A stretch of DNA of 64,000 nt from Kalmanozyma brasiliensis GHG001 (taxonomy: Eukaryota > Basidiomycota > Ustilaginomycetes > Ustilaginales): contig NW_015961955.1 of NCBI RefSeq assembly GCF_000497045.1, forward strand, positions 310,001 to 374,000, read 5' to 3'. The position numbers and the translations under genes were made by a program. Positions 53,039-61,217 of this stretch are shown here, piece after piece. Within the stretch, counting starts at the first letter, position 1, and each line of letters starts with the position of its first letter. The notes beneath the pieces are model-generated. The model was not told where the DNA came from and did not search any database. It saw nothing but the letters and a program-made list of their open reading frames with translations.

Positions 53039-54439
53039 TTATGCAATGAGGTTCGGCTTCCTGCGCTGCGTCCAGCTCTCGAGCTGCCTCCAAAAGTGGC
53101 TCACCGCCTGCTTGTCGGTGTGCCTCTTGTTCCGATCCACCTGCACCTCGACCACATTCCAATCCCTGACATTGGGGTTCTGCGGCTCGTTGTGCCATCT
53201 GACGTAGACGCCCATGACGTTCTTGAACAGCTCCCTCGGCTCGGTCCATCGGTAGGTCTTGAACTGCCATGCTTGGCCGGTGGTGAAGACGGCAATGACG
53301 CGATTCCACGGATCCGATCCGGGGGCGGAGGCGCTGGACCCGCCCAACCTCGTCACGGCCTCAGCACTGTCCACCACCAAGATCCTCCTCCCGATTCCTA
53401 CGCCCGCCGCGCCACCCTGAGCGCCCGTGCCGCCGCGGCTGGTGATGGAGACGACGAGGTCTGCGACCCCGCGCGCTCGCTGCCTCGCCTCTTCCGGCGC
53501 CACAAACACGCCTTCTTCCAAAAACTGCTTGATGTTGAACATGTTCAACAGACTCGTGGGCGAACTCGACAGCACAACGATGGGATCCTGTGCTCGCTGC
53601 TTCCTCACCTGGCCACTAGCAGACACACCTGGTCTCGACGCCGATGGAGCACTTCCGGGGGGTGGCGCCTTGCCCGCTGCCCGCCGCGCCGCTTCCACTT
53701 TCGCCGAAAATGATCGTCGGAAAGATTCAAAGTCGGCCACCTTGCTCGAGACGCGCGAGACGGCCGCACCGCCCGTCAGACCGGCCAGATTGCCCCGCAG
53801 CGCATCGTTGCGCGTTCGCAGCACGATCTCGTACGTCCCCTTGACGCGTTTGACATACTCGACATCGCGCGCGTTGACCTGGTACGCACGCTTGACGCCT
53901 CCGACCTCGGCGGCGGAAGAAGCATCCGCGCTGGTGGTAGCGATGGAGGCGGTGCCGGTCGATGCTGTTGCTGCGGAGGAAAGGTCAGCGAGTTGGAGCA
54001 CACCCGCCCAGTCGTCTCGTCGGCCCAGCAGGTAGTCGAGGATCGCCGCCCTGTCGAGCGTCGGAAACGATGCCACTTTGGCGGTGGCCGCTTGGGCGAG
54101 ATAGGCACCTGGACGCTCATCGCGCGCTTGCAGGGCGAGGATCACGGCTTCGACATCGTAGAAGAACGAAGGCTCTGCGTCCGGGTGCGGAAGGTTGCCA
54201 GAGGAACGACGAGAGGCGAGGTCGTCTCTGGATCTTGCGAGGCGTGTGGTGGTAGACTTGTTCAATGTGGCTCCACCAACCTTGATGGAAGATGCTTGAA
54301 GAATGGATGTAACTGGTGCGGACTGACTGTCGAGAAGCTGTATCGATGCCAGCGGGTCCACCGGGTTGGGTGTGGATCTGATCGCCTCTCGAATCAAGTC
54401 GAGGGCATCTTTTGCGCTGGAAGAAGCCGTGGCAGCCAT
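53039..54439 (-). CDS. CDC73: Paf1 complex subunit Cdc73 (parafibromin homologue)
   Basis: A 466-residue nuclear component of the Paf1 complex, which travels with RNA polymerase II and promotes H2B ubiquitination and H3K4/K36 methylation. The N-terminal part includes DPLASIQLLDSQSAPVTS and FYDVEAVILALQARDERPG, matching the Cdc73 N-domain (PAYLAQAA-like helix). The C-terminal Ras-like domain is very clear: DPIVVLSSSPTSLLNMFNIK, then FLEEGVFVAPEEAR, DPWNRVIAVFTTGQAWQFKT, RELFKNVMGVYVRWHNE, and VQVDRNKRHTDKQAVSHFW. Length suits the fungal family. It is divergent from the NCL1-type gene with 387 bases between starts. Confidence 0.93.
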   Translation of the reverse strand: MAATASSSAKDALDLIREAIRSTPNPVDPLASIQLLDSQSAPVTSILQASSIKVGGATLNKSTTTRLARSRDDLASRRSSGNLPHPDAEPSFFYDVEAVILALQARDERPGAYLAQAATAKVASFPTLDRAAILDYLLGRRDDWAGVLQLADLSSAATASTGTASIATTSADASSAAEVGGVKRAYQVNARDVEYVKRVKGTYEIVLRTRNDALRGNLAGLTGGAAVSRVSSKVADFESFRRSFSAKVEAARRAAGKAPPPGSAPSASRPGVSASGQVRKQRAQDPIVVLSSSPTSLLNMFNIKQFLEEGVFVAPEEARQRARGVADLVVSITSRGGTGAQGGAAGVGIGRRILVVDSAEAVTRLGGSSASAPGSDPWNRVIAVFTTGQAWQFKTYRWTEPRELFKNVMGVYVRWHNEPQNPNVRDWNVVEVQVDRNKRHTDKQAVSHFWRQLESWTQRRKPNLIA

Positions 54440-54826: not shown

Positions 54827-57800
54827 ATGGCTCGTGGAGGTAACCGTGGCGGAGGAAGAGGAGGCGGTCGCGGTCGTGGCCGTGGCGGTGGAGGAGGTCG
54901 TGGTCGTGGAGGAGGCGGCGGTCGAGGCGGAGGACGTGGGGCTCACAATGGAGGTCAGCGAGCCTCCTACTTCCCAAGCGACCAGACGAACGCTCGTCTC
55001 GAGGCCTACTACATCGACCAGGGCATCCTCGACCCCTCCGAATGGGCCACCTTCATGGACTACCTTCGCACCCCCCTGCCCACCACCTTTCGACTCACCG
55101 CCGGCAAGGAGACAACACCGCAGCTCCTCAAGGCGCTCCAGGACATCTATATTCCATTCCTGTCCAATGTCACGTTCGATGGCGAGAAGGTCGACCCGCC
55201 GAAGAACCTGCCTTGGTACCCAGATGGTCTCGGATGGCACCTCAACACCAAGAAGAACGTCATCCGCAAGTCGCCCGAGTTCAAGCGTTTCCACCAATTC
55301 CTCGTCCACGAGACCGATGTCGGCTCCATCAGCCGTCAAGAGGCCGTCTCGATGCTGCCGCCTCTCTTCCTCGACGTGCAGCCTCACCATCTCGTTCTCG
55401 ACATGTGCGCCGCCCCCGGCTCCAAGACGGCTCAGCTGATCGAATCGCTCCACTCGCCCTTCACCTCCGCTCCCAGCGCTTACAACCCCATGCCCACCGG
55501 TCTTGTCATCGCCAACGACTCGGACACCAAGCGCGCCCACATGCTCGTCCACCAATCGCAACGCCTCCCCTCGCCCAATCTGCTCGTCACCAACCTCGAC
55601 GCTTCCAACTACCAGTCGATCACGGTACCCTACAAGGCCGCCGACGAAGGCGCCGAAGTCGTCCAGACCGCTATGAAGTACGACCGCATCCTCGCCGACG
55701 TGCCCTGCTCTGGCGACGGCACCATTCGCAAGAACGTGCCCATCTGGAAGGAGTGGACGCCCAACAACGCCGTCGGTCTGCACGCGCTTCAGCTCAAGAT
55801 CCTCATGCGCGGTCTCAACCAGCTGCGCGAGGGCGGTCGTCTCGTCTACTCGACTTGTTCCATGAACCCCATCGAGAACGAGGCTGTCGTCGCCGAGGCG
55901 CTGCGTCGCTTCGAGGGCAAGGTGCGTATCGTCGACTGCAGCTCGCGATTGCCCGAACTCGTGCGCCGACCGGGTCTCACCACCTGGCGTGCGGCTCCCG
56001 GTCGAGGCGCTCATCTGTTCGGCAAGTCCAAGTACGCTCAGGAGAAGGCTGCCAAGGCTGCTGCTGTCGATGCGGTCGACGCCGCCGCTGCGGACGGAGA
56101 GGGCGAGCTGGTCGATGCCGACATGAAGGATGCCGAGGGTGAAGTTGACGAGACTGCCGACGCTGTCATCGAGGACGGCACCAACGCAGAGGCTTCGACA
56201 AACGAGGCGGCTCAACCAGAGATCGGCTCAGCCGAGTACCGCAACCGTCTCCCTGAGATCGCATGGATCAACGACTGGGAGCAGCTCAACGAGCTGGATG
56301 CCGACCTCGCCTCGCGCACGCCCAAGTCGCTCTGGCCCCAAGGCGACGAGGAGTCGCTCGGTACGCAGCACTGCATGCGTCTCTACCCTCACCTGCAGGA
56401 CACGGGTGGCTTCTTTGTCGCGCTGCTCGAGAAGGTGGGCAACCCGGACGACGAGGGCATGGCCGCCGGTATGATCCGCGCCATGGACCACCTCGATGCA
56501 CTTCAACCCGCTGAGGAGTCGATCACCACCACGGCCAAGCGCGAGCTGTCGCCCGAGGCAGCCGCGGACGGTGCCGAGCCCGCAGCCAAGAAGCTCAAGG
56601 AGGATGTCACCACCGAAGCTGAGCCCATCGAGGTCGACGCATCGACCAACGTCAAGGAGGACAAGCACGCCGCCGACCGAGCACGCAAGGCCGCGCAGCA
56701 GAAATTCGTCTCCGAAGGCCACGGCATTCCCGGCGGTCTCCCCTACAAAGAGGACCCCTTCGCCTACATCCCTCCCTCCAACGACCAGGTCCAGGCATGC
56801 AAAAAGTTCTTCGACCTCAAAGACACCTTCCCCCTTCGCAACCTTCTCGTTCGTAACGAGGACCACCAACCTCTGCGTTCCGTCTACCTCACCTCGACCA
56901 CTGCGCGCGCCGTCATCACCTCCGGCGGGCCCGGTCGCGGCAACCACCCGCACATGAACCCCATCTCGCTCCGCCTCATCAACTGCGGCATCAAGAGTCT
57001 CGGTCGCCAGGACGCCGGTCGTGACGGAACGCTCGAGTGCAAGTGGCGCATCATCTCGGATGGTCTGCTGAGTATCCGACCGCACATCGAGGAGAGGACT
57101 GTGTTGAAGGCCGAGCTCAAGGATCTGGCGTTTTTGATTGCGAACCACTACCCGGTATTGGACCACGTGCCCGGCGAATTCGGGGAGCTGCTCAAGGGCA
57201 AGAAGATGGGCAGCTACATCGTCGATGTTCTGCCGAGCGAGCACGAGGGTAAGAAGCTCGAGTACAAACTCAGCTTCCCCATCTGGAGGGCGGTCAACAG
57301 TGTCAACCTTATGCTGGACAAGCAGGAGAAGAGGTGAGTTTCGCTTCCCCCACAGCAAAGCGCCATGTCCGCAACCCGAATTTTCTGACCGTGACAACTA
57401 ACCTTCTAAAATTTTGCCCACCGCCATCTTATCGCCAGCGCACTGTCCTTCCGAATCTTCGACACGGACCTTTCGTCTGCCGACGGCGGGCGTCAATTCT
57501 CCTCGCAACCGTCCAAGAAGAAGAAGCCTGCCGACGCCGAGATGCTCTCCGACGCTGAAGACGCCGCGCGGGCTGCGCTCACCACCACCACCGCCGCCGC
57601 TGCGGCGCCAGTGAAGGTCGAGCTCGCCCCCTACCAATCGTCGTACATCCAACTCGCACTCGACAGCGCCATCCTCAAATTTGACGGGCCGTACACGCTC
57701 AAGTCCGGTCGACTTTCGCCGTACTTCTTCAACGCCGGGTTGTTCAATACGGGGGCGAAGGTGGCCAAGGTTGCGTCGTGCTATGCGCAACGCATCATCG

Positions 57801-58327
57801 AATCGGCTGTTGAATTCGATGTGCTATTCGGTCCCGCATACAAGGGCATCCCTTTGGCGGCGGCGACAGCCATGGCGTTGCAGTTGCAGCACGGACGGGA
57901 TGTTGGGTTCTGCTTCAACCGTAAGGAGGCCAAGACGCACGGTGAAGGCGGGTCGCTTGTTGGTGCAGAGTTGAAAGGTCGCGTGCTGATCCTCGACGAC
58001 GTAATCACAGCGGGAACAGCGATCAACGAGGCAATGGACATCCTCGCCTCCCAACCTGCGGCGGTACTCGCCGGCGTCGTCATCGCTCTCGATCGTCAAG
58101 AGAAGAGCCAGAAGGACGGCATCCCCGGCGAAACTTCCGCCATCACCGAGGTCGAAAAGCGCTTCAACACAAAGGTCTACTCCGTCGTGACCCTCGATCA
58201 GATCATCGAGTTCATGAAGCGCGACGAAACGACCTACGGCGAAAAGATCGGAAAGATGAACGACTACCGCATCACCTACGGCACTAGCGAGGTGGCCAAG
58301 GCCGAGGCGGCCAAGGCTGCCAAGTAG
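54827..58327 (+). CDS. tRNA (cytosine-5) methyltransferase Ncl1/NSUN2 fused in frame to orotate phosphoribosyltransferase (54827-57333, 57439-58327)
   Basis: Exon 1 encodes an Ncl1/Trm4/NSUN2 enzyme: an RGG-rich N-terminus, SAM-binding motif [14 protein letters not shown] (about 191-204), motif [14 protein letters not shown] (about 291) and motif [17 protein letters not shown] (about 344), with two conserved Cys. It ends [11 protein letters not shown] before an AGGTGAGT donor. The 105-base intron has a CTAAC branch site and atcgccag acceptor. Exon 2 continues [14 protein letters not shown], a plausible NSUN2 end, and without any stop runs into orotate phosphoribosyltransferase (uridylate synthesis): [42 protein letters not shown] loop and PRPP motif [14 protein letters not shown]. 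The joined frame is 1132 codons including stop. A separate OPRT could start at the in-frame ATG at 57542. Confidence 0.75.
57334..57438 (+). other. Junction intron of the NCL1-OPRT transcript
   Basis: The intron has a GTGAGT donor, a CTAAC branch motif at about 57400 and a CAG acceptor ending at 57438; it is 105 bases long. The codon split is AG|C. If it is retained, the reading frame meets TGA at 57335-57337 and yields an 836-residue methyltransferase without the OPRT domain. The interval also lies where an independent OPRT promoter would have to be. Confidence 0.75.
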
Positions 58328-58426
58328 ATGGCACAGTCAAAATGTATAGGTTTTCTCGTTTTCAATGCTGCATACACACATTGCCAGACTGTGATGCGAC
58401 GTTCAAATTGCAGCATACAGTGGGCT

Positions 58427-61217
58427 TCACTTGCCCTTCTTGACGGGCGCGTTCGTCTTCTTGTCATCCTTCTTGGCGTCCTCCTTGAGACTGACGATCC
58501 TGTTGAGGACGATCTTGCCACCCTGCTTCTTGTCCCCGAACAGACCAAGGTCGCCGCTGAGCCTGTCGAGTGCGAAGTAGGCCGTGCGCATGCCCTGGAA
58601 CCTCACCAGCTCCTTGCCAACCAGCTGGTCTGCTGTTCGCTCTGGAGCGCCGGCGCCTGCACCCTCCGTCGCTGCGGTCTGCGTCTCGCTCTGAGCCTTA
58701 GCGGCGTCGACCTCGGCCTTCTTGGTCCTGTCCGCTGCATCGCGGCGAGCCTGCTCCATCGACTGGCGCGCAACGTCCCAGAAACCAACCTCGACCATGG
58801 CGCCTTCCACAATCTCGAGCGAATCCGGGTTGACGTGGTCCAAGAAGTTCTCCTCCGCCGCCGGGTCGTCGGACGTAAACAGCTGATGGAAGATGCGCGT
58901 CTCGTCCACGCGCACTGGGCTCTTCGACGGTGCATGCTCGGCAACCCACTGGATGTACGTCTTGGGCTTGGGCGTGCTGGCATCGCCGTAGGTGGCGATC
59001 ACCTCGATCGGCTCGCCCTGGTCGTTGGTCTTGAACGACGTGCACGTGATAGGGTAGGGCACTTGGAGCAGGCCAACGGTCTTGCCCGGTGCGAGGCGGA
59101 AGTAGTCCTTGCTGTCCACGGCGCGGAAGTCAGAGGCGTCGATGTAGACGGTGCACGTGAAGGGCATCTTGTTCGTGCCCATCTCGGGCGCTTTGGGATG
59201 GAGCGGCTTTTCGAGCTCCTGGAAGTGGTCAGCGGGCAGGTTCTCGATGGTCACCTTGAGCGGGTTGAGCACCATCATCAGTCGCGGGGTGGAGAATTCG
59301 AGGTACTGGCGCACCGCCTGGTCGAATCGGCTGATCATGATCGTCGACTTGGCCGTGGTAACGCCGAGTGAGCTGACAAACGACAAAATCGCTCCGGGAG
59401 GAACACCGCGTCGTCGAAGCGCAATGAGCGTGAACATGCGCGGATCGTCCCAGTCCTCAATGTATCGCTCCTTGACCAACTTGAGGATCTTGCGCTTCGA
59501 CATGACTGTTCCCTGCAACGCCAAGCGGCCGTACTCCGACTGACGCGGCTTGTACACCTCGAGCGCATCGCACAGCCACTCGTACGACTCGCGCGAGAGG
59601 ATGAACTCGGTGGTGCACAGCGAGTGACTGATGTTCTCGAAGCTATCGACCAGACAGTGAGTGAAGTCGTAGGTCGGGTAAATGCACCAGTCCTTGCCCG
59701 TGCGGTGGTGCGACGCCTCGAGGACTCGGTAGGCGATGAGGTCCCACATCTGCGGGTTGCCGTTCTCGAGGTTCTGCTTCATGCGGAGTGTGACCTTGCC
59801 GGGTGGGTATTTGCCGTTCTTCATCGCCTCAAAGTCGTCGAGCGACTCGTGGATGGGGCGGTCGCGGTAGCGCGAGGGTTTGCGCGGACCACGCTCGGGC
59901 CCACCTCGCTGCTCCTTGATCTCGTCGGGGGTCGAATGGTCGACGTAGGCCTTGCCGCGCTTGATGAGCTCGACGGCGAGCTCGTAGAGCTGCTGGAAGT
60001 AATCGCTCGAGTAAGTGACCTTGAACGGCTCGAATCCGAGCCAGCGCACCGTCTCAAGAATGCTGGTAAAGTACTGCTCCTCTTCTGCTTCCGGGTTGGT
60101 GTCGTCGTATCGCAGATAGCAAAGACCGTTGTTGAAGCGAGCGTAGCCAAAGTTGACTGCGATGGCCTTGCTGTGTCCGATGTGAAGGAAACCGTTGGGC
60201 TCTGGTGGGAAACGCGTCATGACCATGCCCTTGGTTGCAGCAAGGTGCTGTTCTCGAAGCTCTGGCTTAATCTGCGGGTTCTCGCCCGGCTTGTGAAGGT
60301 TGGCGAGGAAGCCCTCTTTGAACATGGCGTCCGGATCGACGGGACCTGCTGGCGCTGCATCTTTCTTTGCATCGGCAGAGGTGGAAGCAGCTGCCGGCTT
60401 CTTCTTTTCCTTAGGCGGTGGTGCCTTCTTGGGACCATATGTGGCAAGAAGGGATGCGTCCACGGCACTCTTGACGTCGACTGCGCTGGCCCATCGCATC
60501 TCTGGTGTGGCCTTGACACCGGCGAGGATGGAGCCGAGCTTGGGCCAGCCCTCGACGGGATCCAAATCGGATCTGTGAGACGCGATGTAGTCGTCTACTG
60601 CCGAGCGGCATTGCTCTGGGGTAACGACGACGCCTGTGGATCATTCACATCGGAGAAGAAGCATTGTCAGTGGTCTGCAACACTGCCAAGATGAAGTTTG
60701 AGCAGCAGCGAAGTAAGTCAGATCGGATAGAAACTGCATGCCATGGGGGAGACGAGTCTCCCTTTCGGCTCTAATACATGCGTTTTGGTTTTCTGTATCT
60801 CATCCCTCGAGGTTGCTGCTGCTGCTGCTGACTGCTGGATGTGCACTTACCAACACCACATTCCTTATCAAAGGAAGCCTTGTCTGGCTCGCCATCTGTT
60901 GTAGCGAGGAACTTATATGCCGCGTTGACTTGATCGGAAGAAGCGAGGCTACCGTCGACGATGCGTGATACGACATAGTCTCTCTTAGGCTTATTGGAGG
61001 CCTCTTTGGCTGTTGAGGCGGAGATGATGAGTGCTGATGCTTTCGGGTCGAGGGACTTGCTGGTGAGGTTGTTGTCGGCAATGACGCTCTCGAGCGCAGC
61101 AACGTGTTTTGGGTTGGTGAGGGTCTCGACAGCCCTGTTCCCGCTCAGGTTGAGCGACTCGAAGAGCTTGAGAAGCCTCGCATTTTCTGGATGGTTGACG
61201 TCGACCTTGGGGGGCAT
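58427..61217 (-). CDS. GLN4: Glutaminyl-tRNA synthetase, two exons (61217-60851, 60633-58427)
   Basis: An 857-residue cytosolic GlnRS. Exon 1 encodes the eukaryote-specific N-terminal tRNA-binding domain (LLKLFESLNLSGNRAVETL ... DKASFDKECGVG) and ends at a GTTG/GTAAGT donor. Exon 2, after cacag, resumes VVVTPEQCRSAVDDYIASHR in frame and continues through a Lys-rich linker into the class I catalytic core: FPPEPNGFLHIGHSKA (HIGH at 273-276), RYDDTNPEAEEEQYF, MWDLIAYRV, YPTYDFTHCLVD, and VMSKRKILKLV (KMSKS-type motif, near 510). The C-terminal beta-barrel anticodon domain follows, then a Lys-rich tail. The intron is 217 bases and contains a CAG/CTG run. Exon 1 alone could be mistaken for a separate 148-residue gene. 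Confidence 0.95.
60815..60834. repeat. Short trinucleotide repeat (CTG/CAG) in the GLN4 intron
   Basis: About six imperfect gct/ctg units lie just inside the GLN4 intron, near the donor on the minus strand. The run is short and presumably a neutral microsatellite. Confidence 0.6.

Follow-up and report, generated by a model that had tools for sequence, protein, structure and literature searches.

The analyzed window, a 64,000-nucleotide stretch of the Kalmanozyma brasiliensis GHG001 genome, contains on its forward strand a two-exon gene whose predicted product combines two enzymes (Table 1). Splicing of the 105-nt intron joins the exons into a single frame of 1131 residues with zero internal stops, and the intron and exon coordinates of the original prediction, which had proposed this arrangement, proved correct. 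The frame reads from an Ncl1/NSUN2 methyltransferase through a disordered linker into a complete orotate phosphoribosyltransferase (OPRT). In Pfam, Methyltr_RsmB-F covers residues 181–363, Pre-PUA_NSUN2 650–754, PUA_NSUN2 759–843, and Pribosyltran 947–1064. Twelve AG acceptors between 57345 and 57640 were tried with the same donor; that at 57438 is the sole one that keeps the OPRT frame, and the other 11 lead to products of 844–954 residues. The acceptor at 57360 looked like a second, stand-alone ending of the methyltransferase, its product ending in SAMSATRIF, which resembles the SALSFRIF at the opening of exon 2. This reading was dropped as a probable chance resemblance: it needs an intron of 27 nt, and an equally good alignment is obtained with 100 of 2000 shuffled introns. 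No second intron is apparent at the start of exon 2, because donor-like GTRNG and GTRAG sequences are absent from 57439–57700. Retention of the intron leads to a TGA stop directly after KQEKR, supplied by the donor itself.

Table 1. Features of the fusion locus and its neighbors, numbered from the first base of the window.
Feature	Position	Strand	Residues	Remarks
Cdc73 (Paf1 complex) gene	53039–54439	−		Pfam CDC73_C; divergent from the fusion gene
Exon 1	54827–57333	+	1–835 and two bases of codon 836	Ncl1/NSUN2-type tRNA (cytosine-C5)-methyltransferase
Catalytic motif DVPCSGDGT	55697–55723	+	291–299	Cys aligns with Cys in 9z2p and with Ala in the 9z2n chain
Second catalytic-Cys motif STCSMNP	55850–55870	+	342–348	STCS common to the NSUN2 alignment
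Pre-PUA_NSUN2 domain	56774–57088	+	650–754	PF25376, E = 1.8e-17
PUA_NSUN2 domain	57101–57460	+	759–843	PF25378, E = 8.4e-11; interrupted by the intron
Intron	57334–57438	+		105 nt; GTGAGT...CTAAC (57398)...CAG, GT-AG type
Exon 2	57439–58327	+		End of the methyltransferase, linker and whole OPRT with its stop codon
Conserved block	57542–57577	+	871–882	Begins with the sole in-frame ATG between intron and OPRT domain
Variable linker	57578–57622	+		Presumed site of the ancestral OPRT start; no Met in K. brasiliensis
OPRT domain	57623–58324	+	898–1131	
OPRT catalytic loop	57920–57952	+	from 997	Aligned to 1lh0
PRPP-binding motif	57983–58021	+	from 1018	Aligned to 1lh0
Glutaminyl-tRNA synthetase gene	58427–60565	−		Convergent with the fusion gene

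The gene is flanked on both sides, with 387 bases between its ORF start and that of the Cdc73 gene, and 99 bases between its ORF end and that of the glutaminyl-tRNA synthetase gene. A search of the 64-kb window for tRNA genes, run in the bacterial setting, found none.

The methyltransferase and OPRT modules

The 835-residue product of exon 1 matches the NSUN2 structures 9z2p (E = 4.6e-132) and 9z2n (E = 8.3e-131). Its RsmB/F methyltransferase domain (PF01189, E = 1e-36) carries both cysteine motifs aligned to NSUN2, and the NSUN2-specific Pre-PUA and PUA domains score above their cut-offs. The gene is predicted to encode a tRNA m5C methyltransferase activity. This architecture, together with a SALSF-type tail, is that of Ncl1, which is Trm4 in yeast, and of NSUN2.

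The module does not end with exon 1. The last eight residues of PUA_NSUN2 lie at or past the exon junction at residue 836. BLAST matches to the Pre-PUA/PUA part were seen in 52 retrieved proteins, four of which (P0001, P0002, P0003, and P0005) also match OPRT. In 22 of the remaining 48 NCL1-type proteins, Malassezia and Exobasidium included, a SALSF-type motif begins 39–100 residues from the end of the protein, whereas OPRT follows it here. The motif is not shown in the other 26, comprising four smut-like ORFs (P0006–P0009) ending where exon 1 ends or shortly beyond and 22 proteins without the pattern, several of them from distant fungi. Since the motif occurs in stand-alone relatives and the PUA model reaches residue 843, exon 2 starts inside the methyltransferase. 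By this comparison SALSFRIF is methyltransferase sequence, as had been proposed, and the frame running on from it is the OPRT frame. The ORFs of P0007–P0009 also end at KQEKR, while P0006 diverges there and reads 12 residues further; the intron position thus seems to be common to these four relatives. P0221, a methyltransferase ORF outside the fused set, ends in LDKQEKT, and an intron at this position may occur beyond the fused group.

The OPRT module scores 187.8 bits against the equivalog model TIGR00336 (pyrE), with a cut-off of 106.8, and matches the bacterial structure 1lh0 (E = 1.5e-69) as well as 2pry (E = 6e-55). Within the 261-residue ORF that begins at 57542, residues 29–247 align with 1lh0. 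The catalytic loop and the PRPP-binding motif were both located, in agreement with the original prediction that the frame runs without a stop through a complete OPRT. An OMP decarboxylase (OMPDC) domain, as in UMP synthase, is lacking from the same polypeptide: Pfam reports no PF00215 in P0001, the database model of this gene. Yeast has the stand-alone OPRT genes Ura5 and Ura10. The module shares the whole domain, the TIGR00336 score and the structural matches with stand-alone fungal OPRTs, but differs from them in that its N-terminus is fused to the methyltransferase and no Met stands at the ancestral start.

A single-chain AlphaFold2 model, computed from a 40-row alignment, has a mean pLDDT of 74.9 and a pTM of 0.65. 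The methyltransferase/PUA and OPRT modules are mostly confident. Linker residues 853–891, with a helix at 873–882, have pLDDT values below 50, as do shorter stretches such as the OPRT loop 999–1006. A further helix, residues 832–843, crosses the exon junction; in this model, an intron-retained product would therefore cut it.

Relatives, copy number, and phylogeny

Three full-length fusion models, P0001–P0003, were found in both lists of relatives (82 and 81 matches), and all three contain both domains by Pfam in one open frame. P0001, from K. brasiliensis GHG001, is identical over all 1131 residues. P0002 (1153 residues, 83% identity in the searched part) represents a cluster of 12 member sequences, and its record, "related to NCL1 ... 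/ probable Orotate phosphoribosyl transf", cites both enzymes. P0003 (1144 residues, 70% identity) comes from Violaceomyces palustris, of the order Violaceomycetales, while Kalmanozyma belongs to the Ustilaginales. As far as the records tell, the fused entries are predicted gene models. The search of related smuts that the original prediction had called for thus returned the same in-frame arrangement in P0002 and P0003, and a single Ncl1/NSUN2–OPRT frame, as it had proposed, is the best reading of the locus. The original prediction knew of no described fusion of this kind. No paper describing an NCL1–OPRT fusion was found among the titles and abstract openings listed, in a literature collection with few subscription journals, but the architecture is already present in databases, in P0001 and P0002.

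Two further records resemble the smut gene. P0005, filed under the plant Cichorium endivia, has the same junction but drops out of the OPRT frame further into the domain, and PUA is the only domain that Pfam detects there. P0004, filed under the mildew Golovinomyces magnicellulatus, starts within the linker. Because of their 82–90% identity, both are probably smut contamination of those assemblies. By eye, the antisense of the glutaminyl-tRNA synthetase neighbor also follows OPRT in both, and this gene order looks conserved. In metagenomes, the methyltransferase ORFs P0006, P0007, and P0009 lie on contigs of the same listed size as the OPRT ORFs P0083, P0086, and P0084, respectively, which suggests that each pair lies on one contig; the listed size is in every case, outgroups included, that of the longest contig per cluster, and the evidence on adjacency is indirect. 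For P0008, no OPRT partner of equal listed contig size occurs among the best 120 of 7999 matches. In viral contigs searched for smut DNA, four stretches matched a pattern, none of them encoding a relative.

The 17.27-Mb genome (26 contigs) was covered by a six-frame exon search, which could miss a gene broken by many introns. The fusion locus gives the one pyrE match over the cut-off and the one Pre-PUA_NSUN2 match. Another pyrE match, considered as a second OPRT, reaches 31.8 bits, below the cut-off, and is adenine phosphoribosyltransferase. OMP decarboxylase is a separate gene, whose sole match lies on contig C5, with the fusion locus on C8. If this yeast makes its own pyrimidines, the fusion locus should supply its OPRT. 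In K. brasiliensis and its relatives, the sole copies of the two enzymes that a cell has seem to be produced as a single tethered polypeptide.

Stand-alone OPRT models occur, among the matches listed, in Malassezia, Exobasidium, Acaromyces, Tilletia, Jaminaea, Tilletiaria, and Thecaphora, the last of the order Urocystidales. For Malassezia yamatoensis, M. brasiliensis, and M. vespertilionis, NCL1 and OPRT are listed on contigs of different size; for M. cuniculi and Exobasidium rhododendri the listed size is the same, and in the latter the record numbers are far apart (002192 and 000444). In the OPRT tree of 27 rows, drawn with a midpoint root for display only and without P0005, Thecaphora lies outside a 16-row group with a support of 91/80, below the star level of the tool. 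This group consists of the fused and block-bearing rows plus P0088, P0092, and P0093. The stand-alone OPRT annotations P0088 (Melanopsichium) and P0093 (Pseudozyma flocculosa) therefore fall inside the fused-type clade, P0093 beside Violaceomyces, and no NCL1 record is named for either fungus among the matches in the two lists of relatives. The simplest history is that the genes fused once, in the common ancestor of Ustilaginales and Violaceomycetales; given this, P0088 and P0093 are either split gene models or true reversals. One Tilletia horrida OPRT of 239 residues (P0126) bears the name "tRNA (cytosine-5-)-methyltransferase ncl1", probably carried over from a fused smut relative.

The linker and the ancestral OPRT start

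The openness of the linker is unremarkable, as 2190 of 5000 dinucleotide shuffles likewise contain no stop, and by itself it is weak evidence for a fusion. Its in-frame coding score is reached by none of 2000 shuffles; the codon usage is of the coding type and not due to chance. The conserved block is present in 13 of 17 aligned rows, as EDAARAA in 12 and as a variant in P0003. Most of these rows are metagenome ORFs assigned to smuts from their tree position. Of the other four rows, P0092 is divergent at the block, and P0088, P0093, and P0094 start downstream of it. After the block, the linker continues in frame with a length that varies between rows. No Met occurs between block and OPRT domain in nine of the 13 block-bearing rows, K. 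brasiliensis included, and one is kept in P0003, P0083, P0085, and P0090. In P0083 the sequence there is MASST, with which the stand-alone OPRT from Thecaphora frezii (P0094) also begins. Of the fused rows in which upstream sequence is visible, the three besides K. brasiliensis (P0002, P0003, and P0005) likewise have a Met at the position of that at 57542; rows that open with M were cut by gene callers, and their M is no independent evidence of a shared start.

Products of the locus and their possible role

Taken as a whole, these data look like a real and conserved fusion gene, probably formed once. The locus is likely one gene, whose spliced mRNA would give a single protein consisting of a tRNA m5C methyltransferase, a flexible linker and OPRT. 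In the proposed history, the NCL1 and OPRT genes would have become same-strand neighbors in the ancestor of the two orders, the methyltransferase stop codon would have been lost, and the acidic tail would have continued into the beginning of OPRT. In many lineages the former initiation codon of OPRT would then have decayed, leaving OPRT dependent on the upstream gene. One polypeptide would thereby supply both activities, with the domains independent on a flexible tether. Against this reading speak the status of the fused records as, so far as the entries tell, predicted gene models; the stand-alone annotations P0088 and P0093 within the same clade; the Met at 57542, which appears conserved as an OPRT start codon would be; and the lack of any known pathway step common to the two enzymes.

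The Met at 57542 is found in all four rows with visible upstream sequence, K. brasiliensis itself being the fourth, and favors an unlikely alternative in which the locus has two products. The spliced mRNA would then serve for the fusion, or mainly for the methyltransferase, and most OPRT would be translated from the ATG at 57542 on a shorter mRNA, transcribed from an internal promoter in the intron or close to it. Pyrimidine synthesis may also need more protein than tRNA methylation. However, the methyltransferase stop is still absent, so that the full mRNA would encode the fusion in any case. Scanning to 57542 on the spliced mRNA is unlikely, because 34 ATGs, the NCL1 start included, come first. 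The Met sits in a conserved block that may be read as methyltransferase tail, such tails having acidic ends (e.g., LDEDALQELENAAA in Exobasidium), and, as a weak argument, TATAA and TATATA are absent from 57100–57700.

A merging of two adjacent genes by wrong prediction in every species is very improbable. The methyltransferase mRNA would then be cleaved and polyadenylated within the intron or linker, or the intron would be retained, which gives the immediate stop after KQEKR, and P0088, P0093, and P0094 are indeed annotated as stand-alone OPRTs. However, the retained or truncated form would lose the last eight PUA residues and cut the predicted helix, and the retention stop is not universal, given the read-through in P0006. 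AATAAA is absent from 57100–57700, a weak point since it is also absent from 58327–58600. Such a merging explains neither the conservation of an in-frame block nor the lack of an OPRT start. A fusion under regulated splicing, in which retention would switch off OPRT and trim the methyltransferase so that splicing sets the amount of OPRT, is scarcely credible: the donor-encoded stop and the ends of P0007–P0009 at the same residue agree with it, but P0006 has no stop there and many introns create stops when retained.

To our knowledge, the methyltransferase and OPRT share no pathway step. Since nothing was found to link tRNA methylation with the OPRT reaction, the fusion is by default read as one that became fixed by chance and was locked in when OPRT lost its start codon. 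Yeast and bacterial OPRTs act as dimers, and Ncl1 acts in the nucleus. An OPRT dimer would accordingly also pair two methyltransferase units. Such forced pairing is plausible but not certain, because the OPRT domain of human UMPS appears to be active as a monomer, according to PMC9978035. It is rather doubtful that, in a single group of smuts drawn from the two orders, de novo pyrimidine synthesis has become tied to tRNA cytosine methylation, with the sole OPRT riding on the tRNA methyltransferase, pairing its units through the OPRT dimer, possibly entering the nucleus with it, and mutually coupling tRNA modification and UMP supply. In practical terms, uracil synthesis may also be affected when NCL1 is disrupted or tagged in these yeasts, and the lesions of strains selected on 5-fluoroorotate may fall in a gene whose product is a tRNA methyltransferase as well.

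OPRT is usually found by itself or joined to the enzyme of the next pathway step. OPRT–OMPDC fusions with either domain order are described in PMC2705460. As in those proteins, OPRT is here part of a bifunctional polypeptide born of gene fusion; unlike there, where the partner is the next pathway enzyme, it is joined to an RNA-modifying enzyme, and the OMPDC gene is separate. A conserved fusion of this kind departs from the common same-pathway pattern of fused enzymes. It raises two testable questions: whether conserved fusions of unrelated enzymes can be neutral accidents locked by start-codon loss, and whether a coupling exists between tRNA modification and nucleotide supply. The predicted OPRT–threonine synthase models of Wallemia (P0024 and P0028) likewise link OPRT, in a basidiomycete, to an enzyme from a different pathway, but in P0024, whose domains were checked by Pfam, OPRT is N-terminal and the partner different. 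A 696-residue metagenome ORF (P0014) contains a class-I glutamine amidotransferase domain and an OPRT similar by eye to the Jaminaea enzyme; the ORF may represent two genes that the caller read as one.
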